Origin: Helicobacter cetorum
Lineage (GTDB): Bacteria > Campylobacterota > Campylobacteria > Campylobacterales > UBA6016
Assembly (NCBI GenBank): GCA_022729705.1
Contig: DZAX01000008.1
Location: 1 to 64,000, forward strand
Direction of reading: 5' to 3'
DNA: 64,000 nucleotides
In this document: positions 8,753-20,521 of the stretch, in pieces
How positions within the stretch are numbered: position 1 is the stretch's first letter
Layout of the letters: each line of letters begins with the position of its first letter
Position numbers and translations under genes: made by a program
The notes under the pieces: generated by a model
What the model was told of the DNA's origin: nothing
The model's database searches: none
The model's input: the letters and a program-made list of their open reading frames with translations, nothing else

Positions 8753-9628
8753 TTAAGCCTTTGCAAAATGTATAACGGTTAAGTCGTCATCTAGCGTAAT
8801 CGTAAGCGCTCTTGCTCCTATTTCGTCGATAAAAGATTTATCAAATAACTTCATAACTTCGCCGTCAACTTGCGGGAGAACGCTACCCTCAACAAGTCCG
8901 TCGCTATATAAAATAAGTTTTTTAAACTCGTCAAGTTTTACGGTTTGCGGCACCCAATTTGGAATAAAGCTCATCGCCGGAGCGTTGTTTGAGCGAAGCT
9001 CAACTATGTTTTCGCCGTCTTTTATATACGCCGGATACATGCCTGCCATCGCATAACTAACCTCTGTAAAATCAGGGTTAAACCAAAAAAACGAGCCGCT
9101 TAGTTGCTCGCCGTCTGAAAGCATCGTCTCAAACAGATAGGAGAGTCTTGAAAACATCTGCTCCAAATCATCAACTTGAAGTATCGCTTGTTTGACAAAG
9201 GAGGCGAGAGCAAAAGAGGTAAGAGATGGTAACAGTCCGTGTCCCATTGCGTCTATAAGATACAAAAAAGCTCCGCCGGTTCTTGTCTTATGCAAAGAGT
9301 AGGCGTCGCCGCTTAAAATGTCGGCGGCGAGATAGACTATTTTGATGTCAAAACCGTTGTCTTCTTCAAAGTCGTTTGCAATCATAGCTTTTTGTTTTCT
9401 ATGAGCCATCTCTTGCTCGTTTCTTGCTTGTTCGTTTAGTTTTTGCAATATATCTTGCTGCCTGTCGCTTAAACGTATGATTTTATCAAGGCGTTTTACA
9501 TTTTTGGCTAGTGCTGCGGCAACCCTAAAAAGAGAGACCTTGACTTTTTCAATGTCGTTTTCCTGCGCTATTACAGTCTCAGCCTCACTAATAAGTCCCT
9601 TTTCCATTTCAGCAATCTCCCGCAACAT
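8753..9628 (-). CDS. SpoIIE/PP2C-type serine phosphatase
   Basis: 'AADILSGDAYSLH...LIDAMGHGLLPSLTSFALASF...LILYSDGLVEG' PP2C/SpoIIE motifs. Confidence 0.85.
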   Translation of the reverse strand: MLREIAEMEKGLISEAETVIAQENDIEKVKVSLFRVAAALAKNVKRLDKIIRLSDRQQDILQKLNEQARNEQEMAHRKQKAMIANDFEEDNGFDIKIVYLAADILSGDAYSLHKTRTGGAFLYLIDAMGHGLLPSLTSFALASFVKQAILQVDDLEQMFSRLSYLFETMLSDGEQLSGSFFWFNPDFTEVSYAMAGMYPAYIKDGENIVELRSNNAPAMSFIPNWVPQTVKLDEFKKLILYSDGLVEGSVLPQVDGEVMKLFDKSFIDEIGARALTITLDDDLTVIHFAKA

Positions 9629-9872: not shown

Positions 9873-11528
9873 ATGACTGCTTTACGTCACAGCATACGAT
9901 TACAAATTTTAGTTTTTTCAGCTCTTGCAAATTTATTGTTAATATTTTGTTTTACAGTGTATCTACATCATGTAGAAAAAATAGCGTTGGATGATAAGCT
10001 AAAGGTACAGTTATATACGGCGGCAAAAATGCTACAACCAAGCATGGATGAATACCACTCGAAAATAGAAAATAATCTATCGGTATCTAGCGAAGAGTAC
10101 AATCAAACACTAAAAAAACTGACAAAACTTGCAAACTCCATCGGAGTTGAGTATATCTACACGCTAGTTTTGCAAAATGGTCAAACTTTCTATACGGCGG
10201 ACTCCTATACCGAGGAGGATTTGAAAAAAGGAAAGATAACACGTTTTTATATGCCGTATCCCGATGCGCCAAAAGGCGTAATGGAGGCCATAAACAACTC
10301 CAAACCGACTTTTGAAGAGTATGCCGATAGCTACGGCGAACATAGGTCTATTTTTTTTCCGTCAAGTGCGGTGGATAATAGTTCAAAGCGGTATGTAATT
10401 GGAGTTGATATATCCATAAAACATATAGATGAGGAGCTAAATTCGATTGTATTAGGTTCGGCGTGGTATACGATTGTGGCGATGCTTGTCGCTATGCTAA
10501 TATCGTTTATCGTATACAATCCAATGTTAAACTCAATCGTTGAGCTGTCAAATTTGGCCAAAGAGGTGGCAAAAGGCAATCTATCGGCTAGAAGCAAAAT
10601 ATCCAGAAAAGACGAGATAGGTGACTTGGCGAACTCTATCAATCAAATGATTGGGTCGCTTGGAGAGTTTATTGAAAACATTGAAAAGAAGGTAGGCGAT
10701 AGGACTGAAAACCTGAGCGCGGCAATGAACGAAATAGTAGATTTGCACAAAAGTGTAAGAGACTCTATCAGCTACGCCTCTATGATACAATCGGCTCTTA
10801 TACCTACATTCGATGTGTTAAAGCCGTATTTTTCAGACTGTTTTTCGATTTGGCAACCCAAAGATACGGTTGGCGGCGACATCTATATGTTTGAGAGCTT
10901 TGCCGATAGAGACGCATGTCTTATTTTTGTTATAGACTGCACAGGTCACGGGGTTCCCGGTGCTTTTGTGACGATGCTCGTAAAAGCGATAGAGAGAAGT
11001 GTGGTGGCGCACATTACAAATCATCCAAATCAAGAGGTCAGTCCGGGATATATATTGTCAATTTTTAATAAAAGCATTAAAACAATGCTAAGGCAAGATG
11101 AAAAAAACTCTTTTTCAAACGTCGGATTTGACGGAACTATATTTTATTATAATAAAAAAGAAAAACAGATAAAATTCGCCTCTGCACAAAACCATGTCAT
11201 GTTTATGCAAGACGGTAAAGTAAAATGGTTTAAGGGCGATAGACAAAGCGTGGGATACAAGACAAGCAACCCTGATTTTGTATTTACAGAGCATACTTTA
11301 GAGGCTAAAGAGGGAGATTTATATTTTCTATCTACGGATGGATTATATGATCAAAACGGCGGAGAAAAAGATATTCCTTTTGGACGTAAGAGAGTTGAAA
11401 CAATATTTACAGAAAATGCCGACGAGCCTTTGAATGAAGTCAAAGAGCTTCTTTTGTATGAACTTGGCGCATATCAAGGGCGGAATGAGAGAAATGACGA
11501 TATGGCTTTTATCGGTTTTAAAATATAA
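9873..11528 (+). CDS. SiaA-like membrane PP2C phosphatase (periplasmic sensor, HAMP, SpoIIE)
   Basis: 551 aa; two TM segments, HAMP, then 'PKDTVGGDIYMF...VIDCTGHGVPGAFVTMLVKAIE...LYFLSTDGLYDQNGG'. Confidence 0.88.
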   Translation: MTALRHSIRLQILVFSALANLLLIFCFTVYLHHVEKIALDDKLKVQLYTAAKMLQPSMDEYHSKIENNLSVSSEEYNQTLKKLTKLANSIGVEYIYTLVLQNGQTFYTADSYTEEDLKKGKITRFYMPYPDAPKGVMEAINNSKPTFEEYADSYGEHRSIFFPSSAVDNSSKRYVIGVDISIKHIDEELNSIVLGSAWYTIVAMLVAMLISFIVYNPMLNSIVELSNLAKEVAKGNLSARSKISRKDEIGDLANSINQMIGSLGEFIENIEKKVGDRTENLSAAMNEIVDLHKSVRDSISYASMIQSALIPTFDVLKPYFSDCFSIWQPKDTVGGDIYMFESFADRDACLIFVIDCTGHGVPGAFVTMLVKAIERSVVAHITNHPNQEVSPGYILSIFNKSIKTMLRQDEKNSFSNVGFDGTIFYYNKKEKQIKFASAQNHVMFMQDGKVKWFKGDRQSVGYKTSNPDFVFTEHTLEAKEGDLYFLSTDGLYDQNGGEKDIPFGRKRVETIFTENADEPLNEVKELLLYELGAYQGRNERNDDMAFIGFKI

Positions 11529-11555: not shown

Positions 11556-11915
11556 ATGGCGAGAATTATGCTTGTTGACGACTCTAGGGTATCTAGAAGA
11601 GTTATCGGGGATGTATTAATAGGTCTTGGACACAAATTAGCCATAGAGGCTACAAGCGGAGAAGAGGCTTTAGAAAAATATGATAGAGATAAAGTAGACT
11701 GTGTACTGATGGACGTTGAGATGGGCGGCATATCCGGTATAGAGGCGACAAAACTACTAACAGAACAAGACCCGAGCGCAAAGATAATCATAGTGAGTTC
11801 CGTTTCCGAAACAAATAGAATCAAAGAAGCGCTTGCAAGCGGCGCAAAAGGTAATGTGCAAAAACCAGTAAATAGGGAGGCTCTCGGTAAAATGATTGAC
11901 TCTATGTTGACGTAA
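11556..11915 (+). CDS. CheY-like single-domain response regulator
   Basis: 'ARIMLVDDSRVSRRVIGDVL...DCVLMDVEMGGISGIEAT...IIVSSVSETNRIKEALASGAKGNVQKPVN'. Confidence 0.93.
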   Translation: MARIMLVDDSRVSRRVIGDVLIGLGHKLAIEATSGEEALEKYDRDKVDCVLMDVEMGGISGIEATKLLTEQDPSAKIIIVSSVSETNRIKEALASGAKGNVQKPVNREALGKMIDSMLT

Positions 11916-12135: not shown

Positions 12136-12687
12136 ATGGTCGAAAATCTATATAAATTCAAAAATGACCTTGACGATCACGGAGTAATACTGTGTTTTAG
12201 CGGCGTAGTATCGCAAGAGATTCTTTCAACATTTGCCGAGATGATAGAGTTAAAGTTTGAGAGCGAAGGTTTTGCTGATATGACTGTAGCTAGCAATATA
12301 TTTGCAATTTTTGTGGAACTAACGCATAATATAATCAGCTACTCAAGCAATGCGACAATTGTCGGCGATAATAAAAAACAGAGTCCAGGCTTGATAATTA
12401 TAGGACACGATGCGACTCTTGCAAAATTCTATATCAAAAGCGGCAATACCGTAGAGGCGTCATCAAGAGATAGGATTGCCAAGAGAATCGACTCAGTCAA
12501 AAATTTAAATAAAGAGGAGCTAAAAATACTCTACAAAGAGCATCGAAAAAGCGGTAAAAACACTCATGGAAGAGGCGGTGGACTAGGTTTTTTAGAAGTA
12601 CAAAGAAAAGCTAGTGAGCCACTAGAGTACACTTTTAATAAAATTGACGATAACAATTTATTTTTTTGCGTTCAAGCAATAGTTTAG
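12136..12687 (+). CDS. SiaB-family protein kinase
   Basis: 183 aa; 'GVILCFSGVVSQEIL...NIFAIFVELTHNIISYS...HGRGGGLGFLEVQRKAS' typical of SiaB. Confidence 0.8.
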   Translation: MVENLYKFKNDLDDHGVILCFSGVVSQEILSTFAEMIELKFESEGFADMTVASNIFAIFVELTHNIISYSSNATIVGDNKKQSPGLIIIGHDATLAKFYIKSGNTVEASSRDRIAKRIDSVKNLNKEELKILYKEHRKSGKNTHGRGGGLGFLEVQRKASEPLEYTFNKIDDNNLFFCVQAIV

Positions 12688-12699
12688 GAGACTTAGATT

Positions 12700-13077
12700 A
12701 TGGAAAATATGTTTTTTGAAGCTACCAAGTATACGCCGGAGATTACTCTCGACGCCGATGGAAAGCTCATAAGCCTCAAAGGAAAATCATACCCTGAAAA
12801 TACGTTTGACTTTTATGAGCCGATTGTGGCGTGGCTGAAAAACTATTTTGCAGAGCCAAAAGAGGGAGTTAGCATAGTTTTTGATATATCCTATTTTAAC
12901 TCAAGCTCCTCAAAACTTTTTTTTGATATTTTTGACATCTTTGAAGAGGCCGCGCAAAGAGGGAATACTCTTGGTATAAAATGGGTATATGATGCGGATA
13001 ATGAAAGTGCGCAGGAGGCCGGAGAAGATTTTAAAGATGATTTTGAAGGTTTAGATTTTGAGCTGGTGGAAAAATAA
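12700..13077 (+). CDS. SiaC-family regulatory phosphoprotein (DUF1987)
   Basis: 125 aa; 'ATKYTPEITLDADGKLISLKGKSYPENTFDFYEPIVAWLKNYF...FDISYFNSSSSKLFFDIFDIFE'. Confidence 0.85.
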   Translation: MENMFFEATKYTPEITLDADGKLISLKGKSYPENTFDFYEPIVAWLKNYFAEPKEGVSIVFDISYFNSSSSKLFFDIFDIFEEAAQRGNTLGIKWVYDADNESAQEAGEDFKDDFEGLDFELVEK

Positions 13078-14986: not shown

Positions 14987-15081
14987 ATTTGTTGCCATAG
15001 ATAAGGGCTACGAAGAGCTAAATCAGTTTTTGATATACTACAACACAAACAGAAAACACGATGGACTGAAAAAAGAGCTTA

Positions 15082-15239
15082 TACCATCCCCCACAAACCT
15101 AGCACCCTATCTCTTGATGCAAATGCTTTGTAGCGTCGTTGATATTTCTTGATGTGCAATTAGCACACCTATAAAATATCGCCTAGCTACAAAACATTTT
15201 CATCTTCGATATAGTGTACTAGGTTTATGAGGGATGGTA
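15082..15239. mobile_element. 158-bp foldback MITE
   Basis: TACCATCCCCCACAAACCTAGCACCCTAT ... ATAGTGTACTAGGTTTATGAGGGATGGTA; most of the element folds on itself; flanked by TTA/TTA and its removal restores the transposase sequence gagcTTAgagttagaacgcc. Confidence 0.75.
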
Positions 15240-15417: not shown

Positions 15418-15921
15418 GTGAAAAAGCTAACTGCATTGCTATTGTTTTTTGCTACATTTTTACACTCGTACGACTCCGACGACGCTTTAAAGGTCTCTAT
15501 ACTAGAAAAAGCTATTCAATTTATGACCTTTAAAGACAAAAACGAAGCGATAATCGCCGTATATAACAACTCTTACGGCGACGCTTTTGAAAAAACGTTT
15601 GCCGGAAAGCAAATAAACAACAAAAACATCAAAATAAAATATATCGACAATATGGACAAACTTGAGGGCGCGACGGCTCTTTATATCTCAAACGTCGCTA
15701 GCGACACCTTGGGTTTAGTTTTAAAAAAAGCGAGCAATAAAGGTATTTTAACCGTAAGCGACGCTAGGGGCTTTACGGAAAAGGGGGGCGTAATGCAGAT
15801 TTTTATCGCCTCTCAAAAACCAAAATTAAAAATAAATTTAGATGCGGCACAAAAAGAAGATATAAAAATAAAAGCTACGTTGCTTAGAATAGCGGAAATC
15901 TCAAAGGGAGACAACAAATGA
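15418..15921 (+). CDS. YfiR-like (DUF4154) periplasmic protein
   Basis: 167 aa with signal peptide; 'KVSILEKAIQFMTFKDKN...IKIKYIDNMDKLEGATALYISNVASDTLGLVLKKASNKGILTVSDARGFTEKGGVMQIFI'. Confidence 0.75.
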   Translation: MKKLTALLLFFATFLHSYDSDDALKVSILEKAIQFMTFKDKNEAIIAVYNNSYGDAFEKTFAGKQINNKNIKIKYIDNMDKLEGATALYISNVASDTLGLVLKKASNKGILTVSDARGFTEKGGVMQIFIASQKPKLKINLDAAQKEDIKIKATLLRIAEISKGDNK

Positions 15922-18227
15922 GATACTCTAAAAGTTTATTTATTTTTTTATTTGTATCTAGCGCGCTTTTTTCCGCAGATGATATTGCAGAACTTGAAAA
16001 ACTTTTATTGCAAGATACGGAGCTAAAAGCGGATGTAGGCTCAAGATGCGGACTCAAAAACGCTATGCAATCAAATACACCTATAGACGTAATAACAAGC
16101 GAACAGATAGAAAAAACGGGGCTTACCTCTTTAGTGGATGTCATGAGGTATTTTGTAGCCGGGTTCAACGCACCCGAACCCGCCATAACAGACGGAAGCG
16201 ATCACGTCAGGGCGTATACGCTAAGAGGGATGAGCCCCGATCAGATACTGACGCTTATAAACGGCAAGAGACTACACGCCTCCTCTCTTTTGCATATCAA
16301 CGGAACCATAGGGAGAGGGAGCGCTCACGCCGATCTTGATACGTTGCCCGTTAATATGATAGAAAGAATAGAGATACTAAGAGACGGGGCGGCGGCGCAA
16401 TACGGCTCAGATGCGATTGCCGGAGTCGTAAATATCGTACTAAAAGGGATGGGCGGCGGCTCTTCCGTCGCTTTGCAAAACGCCCTTAGATCAGGCGGCG
16501 ATGGGGCTAGTTTATATGCGAGTATGTTTTATTCAAAGGCTATGCGATACGACGGATTTATCAATATTGCAGCCGCGATAAAAAAACAAGAGAGTACCGA
16601 CAACGCCGGACTAGACGCAAGAGCGGGGGTCGCGCCCGTAAGGCATACGACAAAAATGGGCTTGCCAAAGAGCGACAATCTCCAGATGAGCGCAAATATC
16701 GAACTTCCAAACGAAAACGACTCCATAATCTACGCTAACGCAAATATAAATTTTAGAGATAGCGAGGCTAACGCTATATATAGGGCACCAAGCGCTTATT
16801 CGACCAACGGGTTTTTGCCGACGATAAATCCGCAAATTTACGACTATAGGCTAGGGGTCGGGGTAAAAAAAGAGGGCGGAATAATCGATTGGGATATTAG
16901 CTCCGTATACGGGCTAAACGAAATTAGATTTTACGTCAAAGACTCAATGAACTACTCGCTAGCGCCAAACTCTCAAAGCGAGTTTTATAACGGCTCTTTA
17001 AAACTTACCCAAAATACGACAAATTTTGATTTCAAAAAAAAGATTCAAAACTTTGCGCTTGCGGGTGGAGCCGAGTATAGATACGAGGGGTATAAAATAA
17101 AAAATGGCGAGGAGAGCTCATACTATACCAAAATGGGAGTAACGGGCGGAGCGCAAGGACTTAGCGGGTATAAAGTGGAAAGCGCCGTCGATACCTCCAG
17201 AAATAGTTACGCCCTTTATTTTGACGCAAAGTATTTCATAAACCCGAGTAGCTCGCTCGATAGCGCCGTTAGATATGAGAGATATAGCGATTTTGGAGCC
17301 ACGACAAACTATAAACTCGCTTACGGATACGCCATAAACGACGCTTTGACGTTTAGAACCTCCGCAAGCACCGGCTTTAGGGCGCCGTCTTTGGCTCAAT
17401 GGAACTACTCTTACGTCTCCTCTTATGCGTCGTCAACATCTCTCGTATTAGGCGGTATTTTTAGACCCTCCGAGCCTATTGCACAGATATATGGGGCAAA
17501 GAAGCTAAAGGCCGAAAAATCCAAACATTTGGCTTTTGGCGGCGTGTATAGACCCTCCCAAAACGGCTCTTTTACCGTCGATTTTTTTTATAACGAGGTT
17601 GACGACAAAATAGCGTTGTCGAGAAATTATACGACGACAAGCGCCGAACGAGCCGCCTACGGCGTTAGCTTTGTGTCGTTTTTTACAAATGTGTTCTCCA
17701 CAAGGACTAAAGGGGTGGATATAAAATACGAACAGCTATTCGACTTCCCCTCGTTAAAAATAAAATCGTCGATTTGGTACAACTATAACGACAATGAAGT
17801 AACCGACATAAAAGACGCAAAAATCACTAGAAGCAACTCTTTTAGAGAGATAGACAAGCTAGAAAACGGACAACCAAAACATAGCGCAAAGTGGCTAAAC
17901 GCATTTGATTTTGGCAAATTTTCCGCTGCCGTCAATATAAATTATTTTGGCTCTTTCAAGGACGTTCCACCCTCCGGCGAAGCCTCTTATAATTTTGACC
18001 CTATCGTAACGACCGACTGCGACGTATCCTATAAATACAATAAAAATATATCGTTTACCGTTGGCGGACTAAATATCTTTAACGCAATGCATAGTAAGTG
18101 GGATAGAACAATCTCTTCGGGAGGCAGTTATTTTTACGCCAAGGACGGGCTATTGCCCTACTCTCAATACTCTCCGATGGGTTTTAGCGGCGGGTATTAC
18201 TACATAAAAGCAAACATAAAGTTCTAA
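15918..18227 (+). CDS. TonB-dependent outer-membrane receptor
   Basis: 769 aa; plug 'TPIDVITSEQIEKTGLTSLVDVMRYFV...LRGMSPDQILTLINGKRLH...IERIEILRDGAAAQYGSDAIAGVVNIVLK', beta-barrel with terminal aromatic F. Confidence 0.93.
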   Translation: MRYSKSLFIFLFVSSALFSADDIAELEKLLLQDTELKADVGSRCGLKNAMQSNTPIDVITSEQIEKTGLTSLVDVMRYFVAGFNAPEPAITDGSDHVRAYTLRGMSPDQILTLINGKRLHASSLLHINGTIGRGSAHADLDTLPVNMIERIEILRDGAAAQYGSDAIAGVVNIVLKGMGGGSSVALQNALRSGGDGASLYASMFYSKAMRYDGFINIAAAIKKQESTDNAGLDARAGVAPVRHTTKMGLPKSDNLQMSANIELPNENDSIIYANANINFRDSEANAIYRAPSAYSTNGFLPTINPQIYDYRLGVGVKKEGGIIDWDISSVYGLNEIRFYVKDSMNYSLAPNSQSEFYNGSLKLTQNTTNFDFKKKIQNFALAGGAEYRYEGYKIKNGEESSYYTKMGVTGGAQGLSGYKVESAVDTSRNSYALYFDAKYFINPSSSLDSAVRYERYSDFGATTNYKLAYGYAINDALTFRTSASTGFRAPSLAQWNYSYVSSYASSTSLVLGGIFRPSEPIAQIYGAKKLKAEKSKHLAFGGVYRPSQNGSFTVDFFYNEVDDKIALSRNYTTTSAERAAYGVSFVSFFTNVFSTRTKGVDIKYEQLFDFPSLKIKSSIWYNYNDNEVTDIKDAKITRSNSFREIDKLENGQPKHSAKWLNAFDFGKFSAAVNINYFGSFKDVPPSGEASYNFDPIVTTDCDVSYKYNKNISFTVGGLNIFNAMHSKWDRTISSGGSYFYAKDGLLPYSQYSPMGFSGGYYYIKANIKF

Positions 18228-20521
18228 TGAGATCGATTAGGTCAAAACTCATTTTCATGCTAAGCCTTTCGGCTTTGCTCTCTATCGCCCTCACCTCTAC
18301 AGCCCTTTTTATCTACAAGTACAACCAAAGCAGGTCTCAAGCCATAAGCATACTATCAGATATGGCGGCTGTAATGAGCGAAAATCTTACCGCCTCTTTG
18401 GAGTTTGACGACGAGGCAAGCGCCAAATCTATACTTAACGCTTTTAAAAATTCCGGCAGAATAGACGGCGCCTATCTACTAAAAAAAGACGGCTCGATGC
18501 TGGCAAAATACGAAAAAGATGGGTTAAATAAAGAGTTAATATTAAAAAAAGCCAAACCATTTTTTGAAAATATACTCATAAAGCCCGAGTCAAGCTCTTT
18601 TGATTTTAACTCTATATTTTTGGCTAAACAGATAATTTTAAACGACAAACATATAGGATCCGTCGTTATCGCCTCTAATACAAAGGAGATGCAAGAGACG
18701 CTTTACACTCAGCTTTTTATGCAAACAACAACGTCGTTAATAGCGCTAATTTTGATGATTTTGCTTGCGTTTAGACTCCAAAAAGCGTTTACCGACCCAA
18801 TTTACACTTTAAAAAATGCGTTTGACGCCGTTAGGCTAAAAAACGATTACTCCGCCAAGATAGACCTAAAAACAAACGACGAGTTTCAATCTTTGTTTGA
18901 CGGTTTTGGAAAAATGCTGGAAACTATAAAAAATCAAAAAGCGGAGCTTGAAGTATATACCGATAGCCTAAACGAGACTATAGCGCTTAAAACGGCGGAC
19001 ATTCAAAACCAAAAGGCAAGGCTGGAGAGGCTGCTTGTGACTCTCGATAAAAACGTAATATTTTCAAGAACCGATTTAGAGGGCGTCATCACTCAAGCCT
19101 CGGAGGCTTTTTGCAAAATTAGCGGCTACTCAAAAGAGGAGCTCATAGGCAAACCTCACAATATAGTAAGGCATCCCGATATGCCAACAAGCGTGTACGC
19201 AGAGCTTTGGAATACGCTCAAAGACGGCAAAATATGGCATGGCGAGGTTAAAAATCAGAAAAAAGACGGCGGATACTACTGGGCGGAGAGCGTTATATCT
19301 CCAGAATACGATAATTTTGGCTCACAGGTAGGTTTTAGCGCTATACAACAAGATATAACGGCAAAAAAACGCGAAGAGGTAGAGAGAATACTTGAAAATA
19401 TATTGTTGCCAATACTAATAACATCAAGAGCCGAGCGAAAAATACTCTACGCCAATAAATACGCAGAAGACCAATACGATAGACCGCTTTGCGAGCTAAT
19501 AGGCGCCGACATCGACAACGTATATACCGCAAAGGGGCAACAAGAACAGATACTTGAACTTTTGTCAAAAAACGGTAGAGTTCTAAATCTTGAAGAGAAT
19601 TTCAAAACCGCCGGAGGCAAAGAGTTTACGGCGCTCTTATCTGTTATCCCTATCGTATATTCTGGAATTGATTGCTATATCGGCATGGTGACGGATATAA
19701 CAGAGCAAAAAAGAATAGAAAACGAATTTAGAATACTCCATCAGCATACAAAAGAGTCTATAGAGTACGCTTCGTTGCTTCAACATTCGCTTATCCCATC
19801 AAGCGACCTTTTCAAAAAGTATTTTTCGGATCACTTTGTTATTTGGCATCCAAAAGATATAGTGGGAGGCGATATATATCTGTTTGACGAACTTGAAAAG
19901 CGCAACGAATGCTTGCTATTTGTGATAGACTGCACAGGACACGGCGTTCCCGGCGCTTTTGTTACGATGCTCGTAAAGGCAATTGAGCGCGAAATTGTCT
20001 CGCAAATCAATAACGACGATATGACCGACGTGAGCCCCGCTTGGATACTCTCATATTTTAACAAAACGATGAAGTATCTATTAAGACAAGACAGTGATAA
20101 AGCTATAAGCAACGCCGGTTTTGACGGCGCTATCATTCACTATAATAAACAAAATAGAGTTTTAAAATTTGCGGGGGCTCAAACTAACTTGTTTTATGTT
20201 CAAGACGACAAGTTAAATATCATAAAAGGAGATAGACACTCTATCGGATATAAAAAATCTAACGCCGATTTTCAATTTACGGAACATACGATACAAGCCG
20301 CAAACGAGATGCGCATATATTTGACGACGGACGGCTATATAGATCAAAACGGCGGAGACAAAGGTTTTCCATTTGGCAAAACGAGATTTGGCGATATGAT
20401 AGAGACAAGTTATACCGAAAGTTTTGCGGATCAAAAAGAGCTGTTTTTGTATGGATTACAAAAATATCAAAAAGACGAAATTCGCAATGACGATATAACG
20501 TTGATAGGGTTTAAAATATGA
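18227..20521 (+). CDS. CHASE8-like sensor, HAMP, PAS, PAS, SpoIIE/PP2C phosphatase
   Basis: 764 aa; N-terminus 'LFIYKYNQSRSQAISILSDMAAVMSENLTASLEFDDEASAKSILNAFKNSGRIDGAYLLKKDGSMLAKYEKD' (CHASE8-like), PAS 'SGYSKEELIGKPHNIVRHPDMPTSVYAELWNTLKDGKIWHGEV', PP2C closely similar to 9873-11528. Confidence 0.88.
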   Translation: MRSIRSKLIFMLSLSALLSIALTSTALFIYKYNQSRSQAISILSDMAAVMSENLTASLEFDDEASAKSILNAFKNSGRIDGAYLLKKDGSMLAKYEKDGLNKELILKKAKPFFENILIKPESSSFDFNSIFLAKQIILNDKHIGSVVIASNTKEMQETLYTQLFMQTTTSLIALILMILLAFRLQKAFTDPIYTLKNAFDAVRLKNDYSAKIDLKTNDEFQSLFDGFGKMLETIKNQKAELEVYTDSLNETIALKTADIQNQKARLERLLVTLDKNVIFSRTDLEGVITQASEAFCKISGYSKEELIGKPHNIVRHPDMPTSVYAELWNTLKDGKIWHGEVKNQKKDGGYYWAESVISPEYDNFGSQVGFSAIQQDITAKKREEVERILENILLPILITSRAERKILYANKYAEDQYDRPLCELIGADIDNVYTAKGQQEQILELLSKNGRVLNLEENFKTAGGKEFTALLSVIPIVYSGIDCYIGMVTDITEQKRIENEFRILHQHTKESIEYASLLQHSLIPSSDLFKKYFSDHFVIWHPKDIVGGDIYLFDELEKRNECLLFVIDCTGHGVPGAFVTMLVKAIEREIVSQINNDDMTDVSPAWILSYFNKTMKYLLRQDSDKAISNAGFDGAIIHYNKQNRVLKFAGAQTNLFYVQDDKLNIIKGDRHSIGYKKSNADFQFTEHTIQAANEMRIYLTTDGYIDQNGGDKGFPFGKTRFGDMIETSYTESFADQKELFLYGLQKYQKDEIRNDDITLIGFKI

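Follow-up and report, generated by a model that had tools for sequence, protein, structure and literature searches.

A TonB receptor, a YfiR-like protein and a CHASE8-PP2C phosphatase encoded in one Helicobacter cetorum operon: a proposed trans-envelope input to SiaC

In the YfiBNR system of P. aeruginosa and E. coli, outer-membrane YfiB sequesters YfiR through the surface that is thought to bind YfiN (PMC4655355). In the SiaABCD system of P. aeruginosa, a reported substrate of SiaA is phospho-SiaC (PMC7647112). The SiaD stalk is bound by SiaC, with residues including R74, K77, R80, S82, D83, R84 and Q86, a binding that phosphorylation of SiaC at T68 blocks (PMC8457831). A third relative is the set of TOL_0243, TOL_0244 and a YfiR-associated histidine kinase (NF053591, NF053590, NF053592); as NCBI curates this kinase version, the receptor-YfiR module is already known, and since receptor-YfiR-CHASE8 is a general curated cassette, this subfamily of YfiR proteins normally has a TonB receptor for its partner. 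The FecA/FpvA-type transducers also have a TonB receptor gene within a signalling operon. By what route a TonB receptor lacking a signalling domain could pass information to the cytoplasm is, to our knowledge, an open problem.

The operon described here lies in a 64,000-nucleotide stretch of Helicobacter cetorum DNA (the window, Table 1), and is a real, conserved signalling operon. The YfiR fold and a CHASE8-type membrane partner are common to it and YfiBNR, but it has a TonB receptor instead of the YfiB lipoprotein, a PP2C domain instead of GGDEF, and none of the YfiR cysteines; no OmpA-type lipoprotein of the YfiB kind is present in the operon, the TonB receptor gene being the only one besides yfiR and the phosphatase gene. 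The YfiR-like protein, the TonB receptor and the N-terminal sensor module are shared with the TOL_0243-type set, in the same gene adjacency, but the output there is a histidine kinase and here a SiaA-class PP2C, and none of the three window proteins reaches its curated cut-off (NF053591, 71.7 of 125 bits; NF053590, 42.5 of 645; NF053592, 120.4 of 194). SiaABCD and the window have in common a SiaA-class PP2C, SiaB, SiaC and, in the presumed client, a SiaD-type stalk motif, whereas the window has an extra phosphatase with YfiR/TonB input, a serine at the SiaC phospho-acceptor position, and a presumed client that is a phosphatase (an HD-GYP protein or kinase in relatives) rather than a diguanylate cyclase. 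Compared with FecA/FpvA-type transducers, the receptor is without the N-terminal signalling domain and the operon is without FecR or a sigma factor. No paper on the receptor-YfiR cassette came up when the open literature was searched for TonB together with YfiR, DUF4154 or CHASE8, and its PP2C-output version appears to be undescribed.

Table 1 Operon genes and Sia-related genes in the window, with the evidence for each assignment.
Feature	Position	Strand	Evidence
Soluble SpoIIE phosphatase, proposed SiaC client	8753..9628	-	PF07228 9.3e-16; N-terminal coil motif RLDKIIRLSDRQQ
SiaA-like phosphatase that has a sensor of its own and would feed the same SiaC as a second input	9873..11528	+	PF07228 1.2e-19
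Single-domain response regulator, between SiaA and SiaB	11556..11915	+	PF00072 3.1e-25
SiaB-family kinase, proposed opponent of the phosphatase	12136..12687	+	NF038262 155 bits, cut-off 85
SiaC phosphoprotein, proposed substrate	12700..13077	+	PF09345 1.2e-42; Y65-N67-S68-S69 at phospho-site
YfiR-like periplasmic protein (DUF4154)	15418..15921	+	GTG start; 167 aa; PF13689, NF053591, AF2 fold
TonB-dependent outer-membrane receptor	15918..18227	+	769 aa; PF00593, PF07715
CHASE8-HAMP-PAS-PAS-PP2C (SpoIIE/SiaA-class) transmembrane phosphatase	18227..20521	+	764 aa; Pfam/NCBIfam, motifs, 6k4e fold

The original prediction proposed three coupled open-reading frames in which a YfiN-type input, YfiR plus CHASE8, is joined to a SiaA-type phosphatase, and profile and structure searches bear this out; coordinates, strand and both junctions (ATGA at 15918-15921 between yfiR and the TonB gene, TAATG at 18225-18229 between the TonB gene and the phosphatase gene) are exactly as described. 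The first product matches DUF4154 (PF13689, E=1.4e-25, 90.5 bits against a gathering score of 24.9) and NF053591 (E=6.4e-20), and has a signal-peptide-like N terminus and no cysteines. It scores 27.2 bits against the cut-off of 85 for the YfiR equivalog NF053586, the two Cys pairs being absent. A single-sequence search against solved structures did not recover YfiR, the family profile did (2.6e-11), and the AF2 model built with 40 homologues (pLDDT 91) matches the YfiR crystal structures 4yn9/4zhu (Foldseek E=5e-8 to 4yn9, TM about 0.7-0.8), confirming the YfiR fold. The second product is a TonB-dependent receptor with barrel (4.2e-32) and plug (3.5e-24), nearest among solved structures to the colicin I and ferric enterobactin receptors; Pfam at E<=0.1 returned plug and barrel only, with no N-terminal STN signalling domain.

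The third product carries, as foreseen, a CHASE8 sensor and PAS domains ahead of SpoIIE. Pfam finds CHASE8 (PF17152, 1.1e-13, 51.8 bits against 27), two PAS domains and SpoIIE (1.6e-17), with HAMP weak at just 0.021, and gives no GGDEF match, the SpoIIE domain standing in its stead. NF053592, an NCBIfam model of the N-terminal module that characterises the sensor kinases encoded next to YfiR-like proteins, spans residues 3-235 (7.9e-35), and hydrophobic segments lie near residues 11-29 and 163-181. Both sequence (1.2e-46) and fold (4.6e-19) match the PP2C domain to the solved SiaA-PP2C structure 6k4e, the fold comparison using just the PP2C part of a full-length AF2 model (mean pLDDT 66), because the PAS region was modelled poorly. 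Its catalytic motifs (VGGD, DCTGHG, TDG, DD) are intact; by fold and motifs the domain is SiaA-class, and activity on SiaC is predicted. The whole protein scores 247.9 against 700 for the SiaA equivalog NF038263, the best stretch being the PP2C part. The domain had been taken for a close paralogue of that in the neighbouring SiaA-like phosphatase, whose own match to the SiaA model (8.2e-76) is under the equivalog cut-off. The two do share 53% identity over 275 aa, but nearer PP2C domains, linked to SiaB/SiaC, occur in other genomes (64-66%), and the PP2C tree is weakly resolved and does not separate origin from the SiaA neighbour from origin by exchange.

Among 397 sampled Campylobacteria genomes, 34 have DUF4154; in one family that is rich in it, 81 of 200 genomes do. 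Our survey covered 80 loci annotated with purpose-built profiles, two of which (L079 and L080) were reached through the phosphatase, and 79 YfiR genes. A TonB receptor gene lies within two genes of YfiR in 69 of the 79 (Campylobacterota), against 3 of 512 genes farther away; the receptor is present at the place of YfiB, as had been proposed, but not as a one-off replacement of it. The nearest CHASE8-type output is a histidine kinase for 27 YfiR genes, GGDEF for 22, PP2C for 13, a fusion for 7 and unresolved for 10. The receptor-YfiR-CHASE8 cassette has at least three outputs that can replace one another, PP2C among them. The 13 PP2C triads are spread over 12 genomes (the window species and eleven other sampled Campylobacterota species), in all of which the YfiR-TonB-CHASE8-PP2C order is kept, with most junctions overlapping; among the matches listed in a wider contig scan, PP2C triads were found in Campylobacterota only. 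On a quick receptor tree with some long branches the output labels cluster, but at least 16 changes are needed to account for them (shuffled labels need 35 on average), so that outputs must have been swapped many times. A single well supported group of 26 takes in every one of the 13 PP2C-triad receptors, together with the receptors of some kinase and GGDEF triads. In three related genomes (G177, G196 and G335; loci L059, L060 and L061) the order is YfiR, TonB, CHASE8-kinase-REC-REC and REC-PP2C, this PP2C also being SiaA-class.

As our best explanation, which we hold to be fairly probable, the operon would be a trans-envelope switch. The outer-membrane receptor would change state on ligand binding or import, and the small periplasmic YfiR-like protein would relay that state, by a presumed contact, to the CHASE8 domain of the inner-membrane protein. 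Receptor occupancy would alter the YfiR-CHASE8 contact and so set the activity of the cytoplasmic PP2C, with the two PAS domains tuning it further. The PP2C would dephosphorylate SiaC against the kinase SiaB, and dephosphorylated SiaC would be free to bind the coiled-coil stalk of a client, the soluble phosphatase here and an HD-GYP protein or histidine kinase in relatives. The parts, the operon structure, the intact catalytic motifs and the conserved linkage are read from the DNA; we infer the receptor-YfiR contact, the sign of the effect, the substrate and the client. That the receptor has no signalling domain counts against its proposed step to YfiR.

Support for YfiR as the relay comes from seven loci where YfiR and the output enzyme form one chain, with YfiR at the N terminus: the enzyme is GGDEF in L062-L065, PP2C in L066, a kinase in L091 and a kinase-REC in L092, and a TonB gene adjoins the PP2C fusion and most of the others. 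Their linkers, from YfiR to a strong transmembrane segment, are 151-179 residues long, poor in Pro and Gly, with a helical periodicity above that of most shuffles; as a single helix each would measure 23-27 nm, roughly as much as the periplasm is wide. These fusions bear directly on a scheme in which, as YfiB does in YfiBNR, an occupied receptor draws YfiR off CHASE8 and releases the output. Where YfiR is a covalent part of the enzyme it is not removed, which speaks against simple sequestration as the mechanism in general; a tethered YfiR could still reach the outer membrane along the helical linker, and we regard the scheme as possible, if unlikely. The PP2C fusion is a single YfiR-coil-TM-PP2C chain (L066:9124-11034, minus strand) with the TonB receptor gene on one side and the SiaC gene on the other.

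Somewhat more doubtful is that YfiR acts as a ligand carrier, binding a small molecule imported through TonB and docking on CHASE8 in its loaded form, as binding proteins do on LuxQ-type sensors. Our YfiR model does also match the substrate-binding proteins 6k1x, 3lkv and 3lft (E about 1e-5 to 1e-6) and a TonB importer is a natural supplier of ligand, but P. aeruginosa YfiR works by protein-protein contact (PMC4655355).

Turning to the output of the proposed switch, the target of the PP2C is very probably SiaC, judging from gene content and linkage. Of 14 PP2C-type YfiR genes, that of the window among them, 7 have SiaB/SiaC no more than six genes away, and of the 65 other YfiR genes none has (Fisher 1.2e-6). 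SiaC is encoded in 11 of the 12 genomes with a PP2C triad, SiaB being present in all 11, and in 12 of the 50 other DUF4154 genomes (2.5e-5); the surveyed genomes are related and a phylogenetic pair test, of low power, gave only 4 independent pairs, therefore these Fisher values overstate independence. Several of these loci are single co-directional runs, as in L051 (YfiR, TonB, CHASE8-PP2C, HD-GYP, SiaB, SiaC); L120 reads YfiR, TonB, CHASE8-PP2C, SiaB, SiaC and L066 reads TonB, YfiR-PP2C, SiaC, and the contig scan recovered YfiR, TonB, CHASE8-PP2C, SiaB in Candidatus Thiovulum. SiaC residue 68 is serine in the window and in nearly all SiaC proteins of the surveyed loci. In the twelfth genome (G417, 99% complete) neither SiaB nor SiaC was found, and its phosphatase has VSPH for VGGD, NCSMSA for DCTGHG, KD for DD and a deletion at the TDG segment. 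This amounts to a natural experiment, the substrate system and the predicted catalysis having gone together. This pseudo-phosphatase, a CHASE8-PP2C protein, lies at L114:10400-11866 (plus strand). Taken as a whole, the comparative evidence that the cassette is wired to a SiaB/SiaC partner switch is good.

STAS anti-anti-sigma factors are common targets of SpoIIE/RsbU phosphatases, and the PP2C might instead act on a substrate of this kind, for example one controlling the receptor's own expression. Half of the PP2C-type genes (7 of 14, the inactive one counted) have no SiaB/SiaC nearby, which counts against wiring to SiaC, but the domain is SiaA-class, SiaB and SiaC accompany it in 11 of 12 genomes, and the phosphatase of the exception is dead; we consider another substrate improbable. 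That three ordinary genes without shared function adjoin by chance is scarcely credible, being contradicted by a survey in which their order is conserved, the genes overlap and fusions occur.

In the window itself the distance from SiaC to the phosphatase gene downstream of it is 5.2 kb, which weighs against the link to SiaC, and ilvA and the debris of a transposon separate SiaC from yfiR. A fragment upstream of yfiR (15000-15152, plus strand) resembles the 3' end of a transposase of the integrase type (YYNTNRKHDGL), which suggests a past insertion between the Sia genes and the yfiR operon. Further SiaC matches occur in the same genome (G000:C48:11468-11830 and a second, partial one at G000:C52:4513-4695) with related PP2C genes nearby, and cross-talk with these copies is possible.

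The predicted client of SiaC in the window is, on present sequence comparisons, probably the stalk-bearing phosphatase. Between residues 37 and 70 it matches the SiaD model (E=3.5e-4), and it is the only protein of its genome to match across the full stalk; the stalk profile against solved SiaD was not significant (E=0.52). A search motif, [RK]xx[KR]xxxx[SG]D[RKQ]xQ, was written with the SiaD site and several stalks of the surveyed loci in view and refined on part of the counted data. Leaving aside Sia and PP2C genes, 22 of the 223 that lie no more than four genes from SiaC contain it, against 4 of 1586 others, the matches in these counts always being HD-GYP or kinase proteins. The stalk-bearing phosphatase of the window contains it too, as RLDKIIRLSDRQQ. 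A relative of this phosphatase (42% identical) is encoded in another genome (G210, which also has a YfiR-PP2C fusion), on a contig (C129) where SiaC was not found.

In a wider reading, which we put forward only tentatively, the TonB receptor-YfiR pair would be a general outer-membrane input plugged onto at least three output chemistries, with the PP2C form feeding SiaC. SiaC would then be a hub in Campylobacterota whose client may be any protein with a SiaD-type stalk, be it an HD-GYP protein, a histidine kinase or a phosphatase, and YfiR would touch the receptor directly, in the fusions by way of a periplasm-long helix. A YfiR relay whose outputs are interchangeable would give receptors without a signalling domain a way to signal that can be tested, most directly in the covalent YfiR-enzyme fusions. 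Through the trans-envelope switch proposed here, sensing at the outer membrane would be coupled to a Ser/Thr partner switch, and control by SiaC may extend beyond diguanylate cyclases, to clients that may be predictable from a short motif.
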